IMG/VR virus record: IMGVR_UViG_3300028743_000008
Span: 1 to 52,965 of that record
Source of the DNA: a virus
Reading direction: 5' to 3' (one strand)
Length of the DNA: 52,965 nt
The notes under the pieces are model-generated. The model did no database searches, was not told where the DNA came from, and saw nothing but the letters and a program-made list of their open reading frames with translations. Of the stretch, positions 1 through 52,965 are shown piece after piece. The stretch's first letter is position 1; the number at the start of each line of letters is the position of its first letter. A program made the translations under genes and the position numbers.

Positions 1-148
1 ATGACCATTTCCCTACCGAAAAACACGGCTGGGGGTAATGACCATTTCCCTACCGAAAAACACGGCTGGGGGTAATGACCATTTCCCTACCGAAAAACAC
101 GGCTGGGGGTAATGACCATTTCCCTACCGAAAAACACGGCTGGGGGTA
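1..148. repeat. Tandem array of 37-bp direct repeats, four full units (left end)
   Basis: Four identical 37-bp units lie at 1-37, 38-74, 75-111 and 112-148, with no spacers. Each begins ATGACCATTTCCC, passes through CCGAAAAACACGG (a short CCG/CGG inverted repeat) and ends GGGGGTA. A period of 37 is not a multiple of three, so the array is not a coding repeat. The same unit returns at 52877-52965, so the two window ends are probably contiguous. The copy number shown may be a minimum, because assemblies often collapse or break in such arrays. Its role (replication, packaging or binding site) is unknown. Confidence 0.95.
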
Positions 149-155
149 ACTACCT

Positions 156-3458: not shown

Positions 3459-3770
3459 TTAATTATGAAGGCCCCACGTGTTATGCTCAATAAGAAGGGC
3501 ATTAAAAGTAATGTCGTTATTATAATCGTCTTGCGACATATCAAATAAACTCTCAGCGTCTTCGCACTCGTATAAGTACCAATCAAAAAAGCCTTGTATG
3601 GTATCGAATAACTTTACGTACCCGTTACCATCAAGGTAGGCAACACCCGTAAAGGGCATTCCGTTTGCGTCGACGCCCGTAGTTTCTGCTTTTAGAAACT
3701 CCATTTGTTCACCCTGTTTTTGCCCGTAAACCGTTTCGGTTATCGTTGCAAGTCTGCTAATGATCTTCAT
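3459..3770 (-). CDS. Hypothetical acidic protein, first gene after the 3.8-kb promoter
   Basis: This 103-residue protein is acidic, with DWYLYECEDAESLFDMSQDD near the middle, and has no recognisable catalytic motif. The start at 3770 is preceded by a TTAATACATACAGATT leader of the kind shared by several genes of this region. The promoter -7 box lies at 3797-3804, which gives a 5-prime leader of roughly 20 nt, so this is the promoter-proximal gene of the sub-operon running down to 156. High early expression is expected. Small acidic early phage proteins are sometimes host-enzyme inhibitors or DNA mimics; that is a guess here. Confidence 0.75.
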   Translation of the reverse strand: MKIISRLATITETVYGQKQGEQMEFLKAETTGVDANGMPFTGVAYLDGNGYVKLFDTIQGFFDWYLYECEDAESLFDMSQDDYNNDITFNALLIEHNTWGLHN

Positions 3771-3785
3771 AATCTGTATGTATTA

Positions 3786-3829
3786 ATTTGTAAGTACAAA
3801 GATAACATGTTGTCCTTATACTTACAAAT
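3786..3829 (-). promoter_or_regulatory. Bacteroides-type leftward promoter inside a perfect 11-bp palindrome
   Basis: On the minus strand, TTTG (3825-3828) and TATCTTTG (3797-3804) are 20 nt apart, a full match to the Bacteroides -33/-7 consensus. An 11-bp perfect inverted repeat, ATTTGTAAGTA (3786-3796) and TACTTACAAAT (3819-3829), brackets the promoter: one arm covers the -33 box and the other the expected transcription start. This is the geometry of an operator. A near copy of the upstream arm lies at the 7.1-kb promoter. Confidence 0.85.
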
Positions 3830-3847
3830 GTTTAGCGTTAAATTATG

Positions 3848-6273: not shown

Positions 6274-6792
6274 TTATTTATTAAGTCCCTGTAATGCGTA
6301 ATACTCGTTCTGTATCTTATGTAGGCCGTTGTCCCACGCTTCGTTGTCTGCTAACTCGGTCCTGGGATTAACGTATAGAACTATGCCTAATAACGAGTAA
6401 TCTAAGAGTAGTATATCGTCCGTACCGTTCAGGCACTTCTTTACGTACGTATCGAGTTCGTCGGGTGTGAGTACTCGGCCCGTACCTAATATGGGTGTGA
6501 CATGTACCGTTACTTCTTTGCCTTTCTGTAGTATGGTGTAGGATACACTGAACACAGTTGCGTAACCGTTACCCGCGTTTGACCAACCCTTTGAGGTTAG
6601 TTGCTTAGCGTCGATACAGGGGCGTTCGGTCAACTTAACGTTGCCTAATTGCCAATAGTTCACCATGCTAGAGGTGATGCGTGCCAACTTACTTTGTCTG
6701 ATAAGTCCATTGATAGCGTAACCAATAATGGATGCAAGGAATAGCGCACATAATGCAAGTGCAATTCTTTTGATAAGTTCTTTCGTCTTCAT
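6274..6792 (-). CDS. Membrane-anchored protein with a single N-terminal helix
   Basis: A 172-residue protein with a cytoplasmic KTKELIKR stub, one hydrophobic helix at about residues 9-31 (IALALCALFLASIIGYAINGLI), then a soluble domain of about 140 residues with alternating strands (ATVFSVSYTILQKGKEVTVHVTPIL). The soluble part is probably periplasmic. The start at 6792 has the TTAATACATAAAGATT leader. A role at the cell envelope, such as exclusion of other phages, is possible but not shown. The family is not recognised. Confidence 0.75.
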   Translation of the reverse strand: MKTKELIKRIALALCALFLASIIGYAINGLIRQSKLARITSSMVNYWQLGNVKLTERPCIDAKQLTSKGWSNAGNGYATVFSVSYTILQKGKEVTVHVTPILGTGRVLTPDELDTYVKKCLNGTDDILLLDYSLLGIVLYVNPRTELADNEAWDNGLHKIQNEYYALQGLNK

Positions 6793-6823
6793 AATCTTTA
6801 TGTATTAATTGTTTATATGGGGA

Positions 6824-7021
6824 CTAACCGCGTACGCCGCCGTTATATATTCTCTTTAGTTTTCCATAGCCATACTTTCTGTAGTTAGCTGTGTCTGCTT
6901 TGAACGCTTGATAAGCTTCTGTGATGTTAGACGCGCAATAATTAATCTTTGTGCGACGACCCATTGAATCTATTATTTCATAATAGTTCTTTTGCTCTGA
7001 TGTTACTGTAGATGTTATCAT
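6824..7021 (-). CDS. Small basic protein, first gene of the leftward cluster
   Basis: The 65-residue product begins MITSTVTSEQKNYYEIIDSMGRRTKINY and ends with a basic tail (YRKYGYGKLKRIYNGGVRG). The pattern of a short sheet, a helix (NITEAYQAFKADTANY) and a basic tail resembles small conserved phage proteins of unknown role. It is promoter-proximal to the 7.1-kb promoter, with a leader of about 70-75 nt that ends in the common TTAATACATAAAGA motif, so it should be among the earliest and most abundant transcripts. Confidence 0.75.
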   Translation of the reverse strand: MITSTVTSEQKNYYEIIDSMGRRTKINYCASNITEAYQAFKADTANYRKYGYGKLKRIYNGGVRG

Positions 7022-7052
7022 ATTCTTTATGTATTAATTGTTTATACTAAGG

Positions 7053-7068
7053 TATGGCATGTGCCATA
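7053..7068. promoter_or_regulatory. Short palindrome in the leader of the leftward message
   Basis: TATGGCA (7053-7059) and TGCCATA (7062-7068) form a perfect 7-bp inverted repeat around a TG centre. It lies about 30 nt downstream of the predicted start of the leftward transcript and could be an operator or an RNA hairpin. Short palindromes of this size can arise by chance. Confidence 0.4.
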
Positions 7069-7100
7069 GTCAAATGTCTTATTGAACTCTTTCAATACAA

Positions 7101-7132
7101 CAAAGATAATAGGTTTATCTTATACTTACAAA
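7101..7132 (-). promoter_or_regulatory. Bacteroides-type promoter of the leftward cluster
   Basis: On the minus strand, TTTG (7129-7132) is followed after exactly 20 nt by TATCTTTG (7101-7108), a full match to the Bacteroides -33/-7 consensus. The -33 box is inside TATACTTACAAA (7121-7132). Its perfect inverted copy, TTTGTAAGTATA, lies at 7182-7193, upstream of the promoter. The same TTTGTAAGTATAAG block appears at the 3.8-kb promoter. The predicted transcript covers the gene at 6824-7021 and those beyond. Confidence 0.85.
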
Positions 7133-7193
7133 TGTTTATCGTTAAAAGATTGATATGTTTGTGTTAAATAGACTTACTAAGTTTGTAAGTATA
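7121..7193. promoter_or_regulatory. Paired 12-bp inverted repeat, putative operator
   Basis: TATACTTACAAA (7121-7132) and TTTGTAAGTATA (7182-7193) are perfect inverted copies, 49 nt apart. The left arm covers the -33 box of the leftward promoter; the right arm is upstream of it. A related palindrome brackets the 3.8-kb promoter. Recurrence of the same half-site at two promoters suggests binding by one regulator, possibly phage encoded. Confidence 0.7.
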
Positions 7194-7400
7194 GTGCAAA
7201 CTGAGTTCTGGTTTATGTTCGCCTTTTGGATTGTGCCTGTTTGCCATTAAACTGCGCATTTGTGCTAATAGTGTGCAGTGCAGAGTATGACAAGATGGCA
7301 TGTAGGTAGGGGGTAAATGGTTCCGTTTGAAGCAAGTGGGCACACGTAACTATCTGGCTATCAGTTCATTACCCCTTACCCATTGAACCTTTACTTTAAC

Positions 7401-7463: not shown

Positions 7464-7952
7464 GGTACCTTATTTGGCTCATAGATGCATCACAATGCTA
7501 TACAGTACCCAGATGAATAACTTGTATACCTTTGAGCCTAAACGTTTATAACTCGTACCCAAAAAACCGCGTAGGCTATAAATGTCTGATGGCCTACTCT
7601 GCACAGTGAAAAACTGCATGGTGAAAAATCGGCCCCCCTTTTGGCATTCGGCTAAGGGCCCTACTCTATATTATAATACCCTGTCGCATCCTCGAACATT
7701 TCTAAAATCCTCCTACGAGGCCCCTTAGCTCCTTAGGCCTTCCAGGTAATCCTCCCAAAAAATATAATTGAGTCAAAGGGCCCCCTCATATCAATGTAGC
7801 CCCTGTGCCCAACCCCTTAAAAAATTATTTTGCATCTATCGAAAGAGTATTATACATAAAAAGTGCATATTAATAAGCAAATAAATTGTAACCGCTTGAG
7901 GGTTCAGTTAATTACGTCAATTCTGTTTACATTTATTAGTAAAGGAAACAAA

Positions 7953-8260
7953 GTAAACAATAATAAACAAAGCTTTGTTTACGCTAGCGGCTCTGATAAT
8001 GAGAGAGTTAGACCCCTGTAAACAAAGTAAACAATAAATTAGCAAGAAACACTGATGGAGATATAGATATGCCTCTGAGCAAATGTTAATAAATACAGTG
8101 CCGAAAACAGCGCTAGAGGTTTATAGGAATTATTGTTTACTTTGTTTACGCATAAAATAGGTTGTTTACCCAACAGTCACTTAAAGATATGACACACAAT
8201 GGGTTACACACGATTTGCACCCGATTTTATGCGTAAACAATAAATCGTCTTTGTTTACGC
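7953..8260. repeat. Cluster of GTAAACAA palindromes, candidate origin or operator hub
   Basis: GTAAACAA or its complement occurs many times. Notable items: TAAACAAAGCTTTGTTTA, an 18-bp perfect palindrome (7964-7981); a 20-bp sequence starting GTAAACAAAG (8018-8037) with its perfect inverted copy at 8130-8149; TTGTTTACGCATAAAAT (8142-8158) and its perfect inverted copy at 8224-8240; and GCGTAAACAA (8231-8240) facing TTGTTTACGC (8251-8260). Several arms are shared between pairs, so alternative hairpins are possible. There is no gene in this stretch. Confidence 0.85.
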
Positions 8261-35620: not shown

Positions 35621-35701
35621 GATTATCAGCCACTTAGTATACCTTAACAAAAATAAATTCTTATTTAACACAAAATATTTTTTTCTCTCGGATAAAGCAA
35701 T

Positions 35702-35709
35702 TATTTTTG
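35702..35709 (+). promoter_or_regulatory. Probable promoter before the XRE-like regulator
   Basis: TATTTTTG (35702-35709) fits TAnnTTTG. The -33 region is a T-run rather than TTTG. The expected start is about 30 nt upstream of the gene at 35743. Its location after the lysis-region hairpin (35589-35620) makes it a likely start of the replication operon. Confidence 0.5.
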
Positions 35710-35742: not shown

Positions 35743-36135
35743 ATGAAAAAGAGAAAGTATTTTAATATCGAGCAACTCATAAAGACTTATGCGATCGACA
35801 CGGACGATATAGCAAAGGTTCTTTTTCCTAGGGTGAAATACCCTAAGCAGGCCTTTGCTCGTATTGTATCCGGAGAAGCTGAGCTAGAGTATTCCCAATT
35901 AGAAAAGCTAGCGGATTATGTAGGATTATCCTTATCCGATATGTTCGAGGATCAGTGGAAAGGCTATTTCAAAGACGGCATCCTTAGAATAAAGAAAGGG
36001 GAAGTCGAGGCTAAGTTCAACTGTGGGGGTAATTTTGTCTCTCTATATAAAAACGGAGAGTTCATTGAACACTATGTGGTAAACACGGCCCTATTATCTA
36101 TGAAGGAATTACTAAAAAAGATAGAATCTTTATAA
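35743..36135 (+). CDS. XRE-like helix-turn-helix regulator (putative)
   Basis: The 130-residue product resembles a small repressor. LIKTYAIDTDDIAKVLFPR, YPKQAFARIVSGEAELEYSQLEKLADYVGLSLSDMF has the order of the five helices of an XRE-type HTH domain (about residues 10-66), with the recognition helix near PKQAFARIVSG. The second half is a short beta-rich domain (ILRIKKGEVEAKF). It begins the replication region and has its own promoter. Targets might include the GTAAACAA or TACTTACAAAT sites, but nothing shows this. Confidence 0.75.
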   Translation: MKKRKYFNIEQLIKTYAIDTDDIAKVLFPRVKYPKQAFARIVSGEAELEYSQLEKLADYVGLSLSDMFEDQWKGYFKDGILRIKKGEVEAKFNCGGNFVSLYKNGEFIEHYVVNTALLSMKELLKKIESL

Positions 36136-45887: not shown

Positions 45888-46409
45888 ATGGACTACTTTA
45901 AAATATTCAGTGATTACACAAGGCTAAAGCTTTCCGGGGACACCCTTTGGCGAAGCAATATGGTTAAGGCCGTTGCGGGCCATGTGTCTAGCGCTACCGT
46001 AGATAATTATCTCAGGCTGGCGTTACAAGCCGGGTATATAAAGAAACTGTCCCACGGCAAATATCAGCTAATCAAGCCCCTCTCGAAGGATATGACACGT
46101 AGCACACTTCGCTTCGAAGCAAGAAACGGCAAGCCGCAAGTTAATTATTACGGCAAGGTGATCGAGTTCTTAAAGAGTAAAAGACTAGGTGAAGCGTTCA
46201 CCTTTGCAGAACTCAGCCATTTGGAGCCCGTGCCTAAGAGCACAATACGACACTACATAAGCCTTCTTAATACAAGAGGCTATATTATTAAACTGTACAA
46301 TACGACCTATCGAGTCGAGAAACTAATAACGGATAAACGCTTCGGAGTTCGTAAGATCAGAAGCAAAGAAGTAATATATAAACATAATAAAAGAGTAGAT
46401 CATGAATAA
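45888..46409 (+). CDS. Protein with two winged-helix-like domains
   Basis: The 173-residue product appears to be a duplicated winged helix. First copy about residues 19-65 (NMVKAVAGHVSSATVDNYLRLALQAGYIKKLSHGKYQL), second copy about 88-145 (KVIEFLKSKRLGEAFTFAEL, SHLEPVPKSTIRHYISLLNTRGYI, then TTYRVEK). Both fit a helix-turn-helix with a wing. Strongly basic, so DNA binding is likely. It may act as a regulator or origin-binding protein. Confidence 0.75.
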   Translation: MDYFKIFSDYTRLKLSGDTLWRSNMVKAVAGHVSSATVDNYLRLALQAGYIKKLSHGKYQLIKPLSKDMTRSTLRFEARNGKPQVNYYGKVIEFLKSKRLGEAFTFAELSHLEPVPKSTIRHYISLLNTRGYIIKLYNTTYRVEKLITDKRFGVRKIRSKEVIYKHNKRVDHE

Positions 46410-51698: not shown

Positions 51699-51703
51699 CT
51701 ATA

Positions 51704-51739
51704 GAAAAAGGAGATAATTTGTAGATTACCTCCTTTTTC
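51704..51739. terminator. Bidirectional terminator between converging operons
   Basis: GAAAAAGGAG (51704-51713) pairs with CTCCTTTTTC (51730-51739); a further ATAAT/ATTAC part extends the stem with one mismatch. TTTTGTTCTTATT follows on the plus strand. It lies between the last rightward gene and the last leftward gene (51755), so it should stop both messages. Confidence 0.85.
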
Positions 51740-51754
51740 TTTTGTTCTTATTAA

Positions 51755-52876: not shown

Positions 52877-52965
52877 TACCGAAAAACACGGCTGGGGGTA
52901 ATGACCATTTCCCTACCGAAAAACACGGCTGGGGGTAATGACCATTTCCCTACCGAAAAACGCGG
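52877..52965. repeat. 37-bp repeat array, right end (partial, full and partial units)
   Basis: A partial unit (52877-52900), one full unit (52901-52937) and 28 nt of a third (52938-52965) match the left-end array. The last unit differs at one base: CGCGG where others have CACGG. The window stops inside this unit. The array therefore continues into the left end if the sequence is circular. Confidence 0.95.

Follow-up and report, generated by a model that had tools for sequence, protein, structure and literature searches.

Matched sequence copies on two leftward promoters of a phage related to Bacteroides fragilis phages as putative paired operators

Introduction

What acts on a phage promoter whose -33 box and start site lie inside a single palindrome, and would the same factor act on a second promoter that carries part of the same sequence? 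These questions are raised by the record of a gut-type Bacteroidales phage of 52,965 bp (IMGVR_UViG_3300028743_000008; this whole stretch of DNA is called the window), in which an original prediction placed an operator around a promoter at 3.8 kb and a near copy at 7.1 kb, and proposed that one regulator controls both. Little is known about gene regulation in Bacteroidales phages. The primary sigma factor of Bacteroides (sigma-ABfr) has the promoter consensus TTTG at -33 and TAnnTTTG at -7 (PMC10620806, PMC7366714). The analyses presented here concern the two leftward promoters (PL2 at 3.8 kb and PL1 at 7.1 kb), the sequence copies on them, their counterparts in a set of 80 related IMG/VR records, and the candidate regulators encoded in the window.

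Results

The terminase of the window is 65% identical to those of the Bacteroides fragilis phages BF503P1 and BF486P2, and the record carries genes for head, portal, lysis, exonuclease, DNA polymerase, helicase-primase, and nucleotide metabolism. Neither an integrase nor a divergent repressor/Cro pair beside the operators was found among the ORFs scanned, a scan that covered all but the tail genes and a few small ORFs. The leftward block begins after PL1 and encodes mostly small proteins without family match; searches with the leftward proteins and with the leftward DNA in phages gave no close relative of this block, and none was found for terL in GTDB genomes. Both ends of the window (1-150 and 52880-52965) lie in one 37-bp tandem repeat, ATGACCATTTCCCTACCGAAAAACACGGCTGGGGGTA, and the record was probably cut inside this repeat array and is near complete. 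Since the ends share this repeat, the leftward block probably runs across them to a near-perfect hairpin, AGAAAAAGGAGATAAT/ATTACCTCCTTTTTCT, at 51703-51740, which lies between convergent gene blocks and is probably a two-way terminator. A leader, AATTAATACAT, is repeated just before leftward start codons (3779-3786, 6786-6810, and 7029-7046), with a similar sequence, AATAATACATATAA, in the related record L030, and is possibly a translation-start leader.

Inspection of the two promoters (Table 1) confirmed that PL2 consists of TTTG-N20-TATCTTTG flanked by an 11-bp inverted repeat at the -33 box and the start site, as originally predicted. On the minus strand, PL2 reads TTTG-TAAGTATAAGGACAACATGT-TATCTTTG (3828-3797) and PL1 reads TTTG-TAAGTATAAGATAAACCTAT-TATCTTTG (7132-7101), both with a spacer of 20, so that the two have the -33 TTTG, the -7 TAnnTTTG, and the spacer near 20 of sigma-ABfr promoters. 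Sites of the form TTTG-N18-22-TAnnTTTG number seven in the window, against 1.0 expected by chance.

Table 1. Promoter elements, sequence copies, and candidate genes in the window.
Feature	Position	Strand	Description	Basis
Near-palindrome	3786..3829	.	44 bp, from -33 box to start site of PL2	
S1	3787..3800	+	Putative operator copy at PL2 start site, TTTGTAAGTACAAA, perfect 6-2-6 palindrome	
S2	3815..3828	-	Putative operator copy over PL2 -33 box, TTTGTAAGTATAAG	
PL2 -7 box	3797..3804	-	TATCTTTG	Sequence
PL2 -33 box	3825..3828	-	TTTG, within S2	Sequence
PL2 upstream element	3837..3841	-	TTAAC, 32 nt from -7 box; family-wide promoter class	
First gene after PL2	3459..3770	-	ORF of 103 aa, no family match	
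S3	7119..7132	-	Putative operator copy over PL1 -33 box, TTTGTAAGTATAAG	
S4	7182..7195	+	Putative operator copy, inverted, about 50 bp upstream of PL1 -33 box, TTTGTAAGTATAGT	
PL1 -7 box	7101..7108	-	TATCTTTG	Sequence
PL1 -33 box	7129..7132	-	TTTG, within S3	Sequence
PL1 upstream element	7141..7145	-	TTAAC, 32 nt from -7 box	
First gene after PL1	6824..7021	-	ORF of 65 aa, no family match	
Third class promoter	35665..35709	+	TTAAC-N32-TATTTTTG, directly before 35743 gene; no operator copy	
35743	35743..36135	+	Protein of 130 aa, with a helix-turn-helix predicted to be of Cro/CI type (beta domain after a five-helix domain); conserved among relatives	
45888	45888..46409	+	Protein of 173 aa, winged-helix-like	Low-confidence model

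The upstream TTAAC element proved to be a mark of the whole phage group. Of the 1133 TAnnTTTG sites in the window and its relatives, 35 are preceded by TTAAC at a distance of exactly 32 nt, compared with about two at most other distances, with further peaks at 42 and 54. The promoters of this class (39 distinct, in about 15 related phages) yield the consensus TTAaca..ttTTAACataAAaaATTTTt.taT.Tcaaaaat.aT.tgTA.tTTTGCA, and 36 of the 39 have an ORF within 150 nt downstream, as compared to 571 of 1127 other -7 matches. Three class promoters occur in the window (0.125 expected), namely the two leftward ones and that of the 35743 gene; operator copies are present only at the leftward two, where TTTG replaces the usual TTTT at -33, S2 and S3 standing at the position that is TTTT in 29 of the 39 class members. 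A second TTAAC/T about 10 bp further upstream is common but not universal (25 of the 39) and is absent from PL2 and PL1; the roughly 10-bp phasing of the upstream elements would suit two alpha-subunit (UP-type) contacts. The identity between PL1 and PL2 extends from TTTAACGnTAAACATTTGTAAGTATAAG to TTATCTTTGT, which is the whole class promoter. The sequence that was predicted to be common to both promoters is real, but its TTTAAC part belongs to the family-wide promoter class and lies outside the operator.

Exact copies of TTTGTAAGTAYA number four on both strands of the 53-kb window, against 0.05 expected, and all four are located in the two promoter regions, with one over each -33 box and one inverted second copy per promoter region (S1 to S4). 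When two mismatches were allowed, TACTTACAAAT occurred 25 times against 28.6 expected, which is not above chance, and thus only near-exact copies count. Read as 14-mers, the copies are dyads that resemble Cro/CI-type operators (dyads of about 14 bp over promoter elements) to different degrees: S1 is perfect (TTTGTA-AG-TACAAA), S2 and S3 have four of six pairs, and S4 is poor, with three of six. The centres of S1 and S2 are 28 bp apart, while those of S3 and S4 are 63 bp apart, about six helical turns. Because the second copies are inverted and placed differently at each promoter, duplication of a whole promoter fails to explain them. These sequences had been described as half-sites; the paired, shared copies stand, but each copy is itself a dyad and may be a whole operator, that is, a full dimer site for the putative regulator. 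Given that S2 to S4 are imperfect dyads, an asymmetric site is equally possible.

The 3.8-kb repeat matches exactly over its 11-bp arms (3786-3796 and 3819-3829) and continues without a gap to arms of 22 nt, in which 19 of 22 positions pair. The resulting 44-bp palindrome ranks second among the inverted repeats of the window and first among those at 102 promoter-like sites of the window and its relatives. Its score was reached, at any position, in 1 of 30 whole-window shuffles, and 60 shuffles confined to the promoter region never reached it. At 7.1 kb, the repetition of the sequence over the -33 box and its inverted 12-bp partner were also as predicted: the pair 7121-7132 and 7182-7193 is exact and encloses a loop of 49 nt. 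Taken by itself, this pair is unremarkable on the scale of the window (0.73 of such score per shuffle); what sets it apart is that its 12-mer is the one found in the other promoter region. Promoters as such showed no general enrichment of inverted repeats, the 102 sites of the window and its relatives giving 7.25 compared to 6.8 in shuffles. Unlike an intrinsic terminator, the 44-bp hairpin is followed by no T run on either strand.

Conservation of the half-sites in related phages had been set as a test of the original prediction, and for the exact sequence this test failed. The window operator sequence is absent from the promoters of the relatives examined, and the exact composite promoter pattern was found in a single IMG/VR contig (152 kb), against five for a control with the wrong spacing (N14 for N12). 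Several relatives nevertheless appear to carry motifs of their own on leftward promoters. In L035, TTTCAACTGTCAAAA is closely common to three or four leftward promoters, with variants at others; in L028/L029, ATGTCGAA lies over the spacer in two leftward promoters, both of which have a second copy downstream at the same distance of 45 bp; L023 has AGTAAATGTTTACT on a leftward promoter together with an inverted 8-mer at the start; L082 and L047 have TGATA-CAACn-TATCA on leftward promoters; and L055 contains a 230-bp stretch (6940-7170) of TTATAAGT/ACTTATAA units at spacings near 26-31 bp, with leftward promoter matches inside. A lineage-specific repeat or dyad over the -33/spacer region or the start site is suggested by these cases. 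As the motifs were picked by eye from tables, without a joint null, and the inverted-repeat test was negative, this cross-relative pattern is a lead and not a result. Two candidates were dropped: an 11-bp inverted repeat of a similar kind in L067 is flanked by two rightward genes, and the minus-strand 'promoter' there drives no gene; TTTGCAATGTGAT at start sites of L006, L025, and L028 was judged to be one form of the consensus that start regions commonly show (TTTTGCA...aAa).

Other repeats were observed in the window and its relatives. Arrays of the GTAAACAATAA/TTATTGTTTAC type occur in the window (7900-8260), in L055 (7980-8770), in L033, L035, L054, and L028, and before the 35743 homologue in L095-L097; L055 has 17 copies of TAAACAATAA, and the window has a 23-bp inverted repeat at 8142-8240. 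These repeats occupy the gap that precedes the packaging genes or that precedes the predicted Cro/CI-like gene, and a replication origin or packaging site is a possible function. Long tandem arrays lie around the leftward block of L023 (4400-5150 and 8920-9120), with CAGCCATAA/CAGCCAGAA units, GGGTCGGCCAATTTCCACTGTGG, and GGAAATTTGCCCAAGAGGGC. In L020, six intergenic copies of TTCTCTCGGG (191, 3752, 3972, 5668, 6866, and 6969) share one orientation, with 0.001 expected, and the sequence is also found in L021.

The products of 35743 and 45888, named in the original prediction, are reasonable candidates for the binder of the operators. The related records, many of which are fragments, contain a homologue of 35743 in 13 of 27 cases, and the homologue in BF503P1 has 38% identity. 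In Pfam the protein matches HTH_26 at an E-value of 0.0022, with a score under the Pfam cut-off; HTH_26 was also matched, weakly, by 7 of 15 homologues. The structural model (mean pLDDT 80) shows a five-helix domain followed by strands, and the Foldseek matches were moderate, with a best E-value of 0.014 and with CylR2, DdrO, and TP901-1 CI at about 0.04-0.3, mixed with unrelated proteins. In the alignment, helix 34-42 of this protein varies among phages, which is suggestive of what changing operators would need. There is no sign of self-regulation, since an operator copy is absent at the 35743 promoter. For 45888, no match was found among 27 relatives in a search without a positive control; query P0003 gave no matches in the relatives, without a positive control. 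The single-sequence model of 45888 (pLDDT 60) is too poor for use.

Discussion

The four matched sites are best explained by one regulator at both leftward promoters, and this part of the original prediction is retained although the exact sequence is not conserved. Paired operators for a phage-encoded repressor have a slightly better than even chance of being the correct reading, with 35743 as the likeliest binder and 45888 as the second. According to this reading, the host primary sigma factor would read PL1 and PL2 through the TTAAC element, the AT-rich stretch, the -33 region, and the TAnnTTTG -7 box, and a phage-encoded DNA-binding protein would recognise the two TTTGTAAGTAYA copies at each promoter, each copy serving as a dimer site (TTTGTA-nn-TAYAAA). 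The first copy would cover the -33 box, and the second would cover the start site at 3.8 kb or sit upstream at 7.1 kb. Operators that repress transcription usually lie over the -33 region or the start site, and sites in these positions suggest repression here. Binding would block RNA polymerase, aided by pairing or looping between the copies, so that the leftward block would be expressed early and then shut off once the regulator had been made. The regulator would be the conserved 35743 protein, predicted to be Cro/CI-like, whose own gene lies under a promoter of the same class without an operator copy, or else the 45888 product. Between the two, 35743 is favoured, at somewhat less than an even chance, over 45888, at about one chance in four, and the rest lies elsewhere. 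The operator is specific to the window whereas 35743 is conserved, which is a mismatch; the distribution of 45888 fits better, but 45888 has little support as a regulator.

The same sites could be operators bound by a host regulator or by a small product of the leftward block, which is doubtful but holds the largest share among the alternatives. Most leftward proteins are without family match, so that a small unrecognised DNA-binding protein is possible, and many phages use host factors; a host factor is less expected, however, for near-exact sites that occur only at two promoters of the window phage and are absent from the promoters of its relatives. Besides another binder of this kind, the rival taken most seriously is that the 44-bp palindrome acts in RNA, where read-through from PL1 would fold a hairpin upstream of the start codon of 3459-3770 as a processing, stability, or translation signal. 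The minus-strand RNA forms 17 contiguous pairs (-16.5 kcal/mol, z -5.9, compared to -12.5 for the plus strand), and it is on exactly this strand that G-U pairing resolves two of the three mismatches of the DNA; about 15 nt separate the end of the hairpin from the start codon. Transcripts initiated at PL2 would nevertheless be without the hairpin, and neither S4, which lies upstream of PL1, nor the recurrence of the 12-mer at a second promoter is explained by it, and this role is judged unlikely.

That there is no specific operator, with PL1 and PL2 being copies of one promoter whose likeness stems from duplication or class constraint, and with inverted partners that arose by chance, is improbable. 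Such an origin would account for an identity that covers the entire class promoter, and near-identity among the class promoters of a single phage is common (L030 and L028). Against it stand the exact S1 and S4 within 65 bp of the promoters, where about 0.0004 copies of TTTGTAAGTAYA are expected per 130-nt stretch on both strands, and a palindrome that beats all 60 regional shuffles. An invertible promoter of the Bacteroides type, with the palindrome arms as recombination sites that flip the promoter, is extremely unlikely. The inverted repeats do flank the promoter, which, to judge by the sequence, would be reversed if the 22 bp between the arms were inverted. Invertible promoters, however, are enclosed by repeats with enough DNA between them for synapsis, and a distance of 22 bp is too short for the arms to synapse normally; the -33 box lies inside an arm, at 7.1 kb the -7 box lies outside the arms, and the ORF scan, which was not exhaustive, turned up no recombinase.

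If the repressor reading is right, it would provide a defined operator with two native promoters for testing it and two candidates for its regulator, as well as a natural repressor/operator pair for Bacteroides genetics and a group-wide promoter signature for locating transcription units in related uncultivated phages. A broader version, which is doubtful, would extend to the whole group: a conserved strong promoter class would carry fast-changing, lineage-specific operators at a fixed site over the -33/spacer region, often with a second copy at the start, and a conserved Cro/CI-like reader would follow them through a co-varying recognition helix, in phages that are apparently non-lysogenic. 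If true, this would be an immunity-like, co-evolving shut-off of early genes in phages without lysogeny.

Strong Bacteroides phage promoters reportedly carry a GTTAA...GTTAA...TAnnTTTG motif, attributed to Whitaker et al. 2017. The present class appears to share with that motif a TTAAC at a fixed distance upstream of TAnnTTTG that is often doubled about 10 bp up, whereas PL1 and PL2 lack the second TTAAC and have the extra operator copies; the promoter class may be known already in outline, with the operators on top of it being new. Compared to sigma-ABfr promoters, from which PL1 and PL2 do not depart in boxes or spacer, most class members of the phage group have TTTT at -33 and the fixed TTAAC upstream. 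In engineered promoters of B. thetaiotaomicron, repression was good for designs that combined an operator in the -33 to -7 interval with another close to the start, while most single-operator designs repressed poorly (PMC9259675). Those promoters are of the LacI type, and here one copy lies over -33 and the second copy at 7.1 kb lies upstream, but the pairing on one promoter of a core operator with another close to the start is the same. From the Cro/CI-type systems of lambda, 434, and TP901-1, the window phage differs in that the ORFs scanned yielded no lysogeny genes, the candidate gene is distant and non-divergent, and binding is putative; in common with them, it has short dyads, more than one per promoter, that overlap promoter elements, and it encodes a candidate Cro/CI-like protein.
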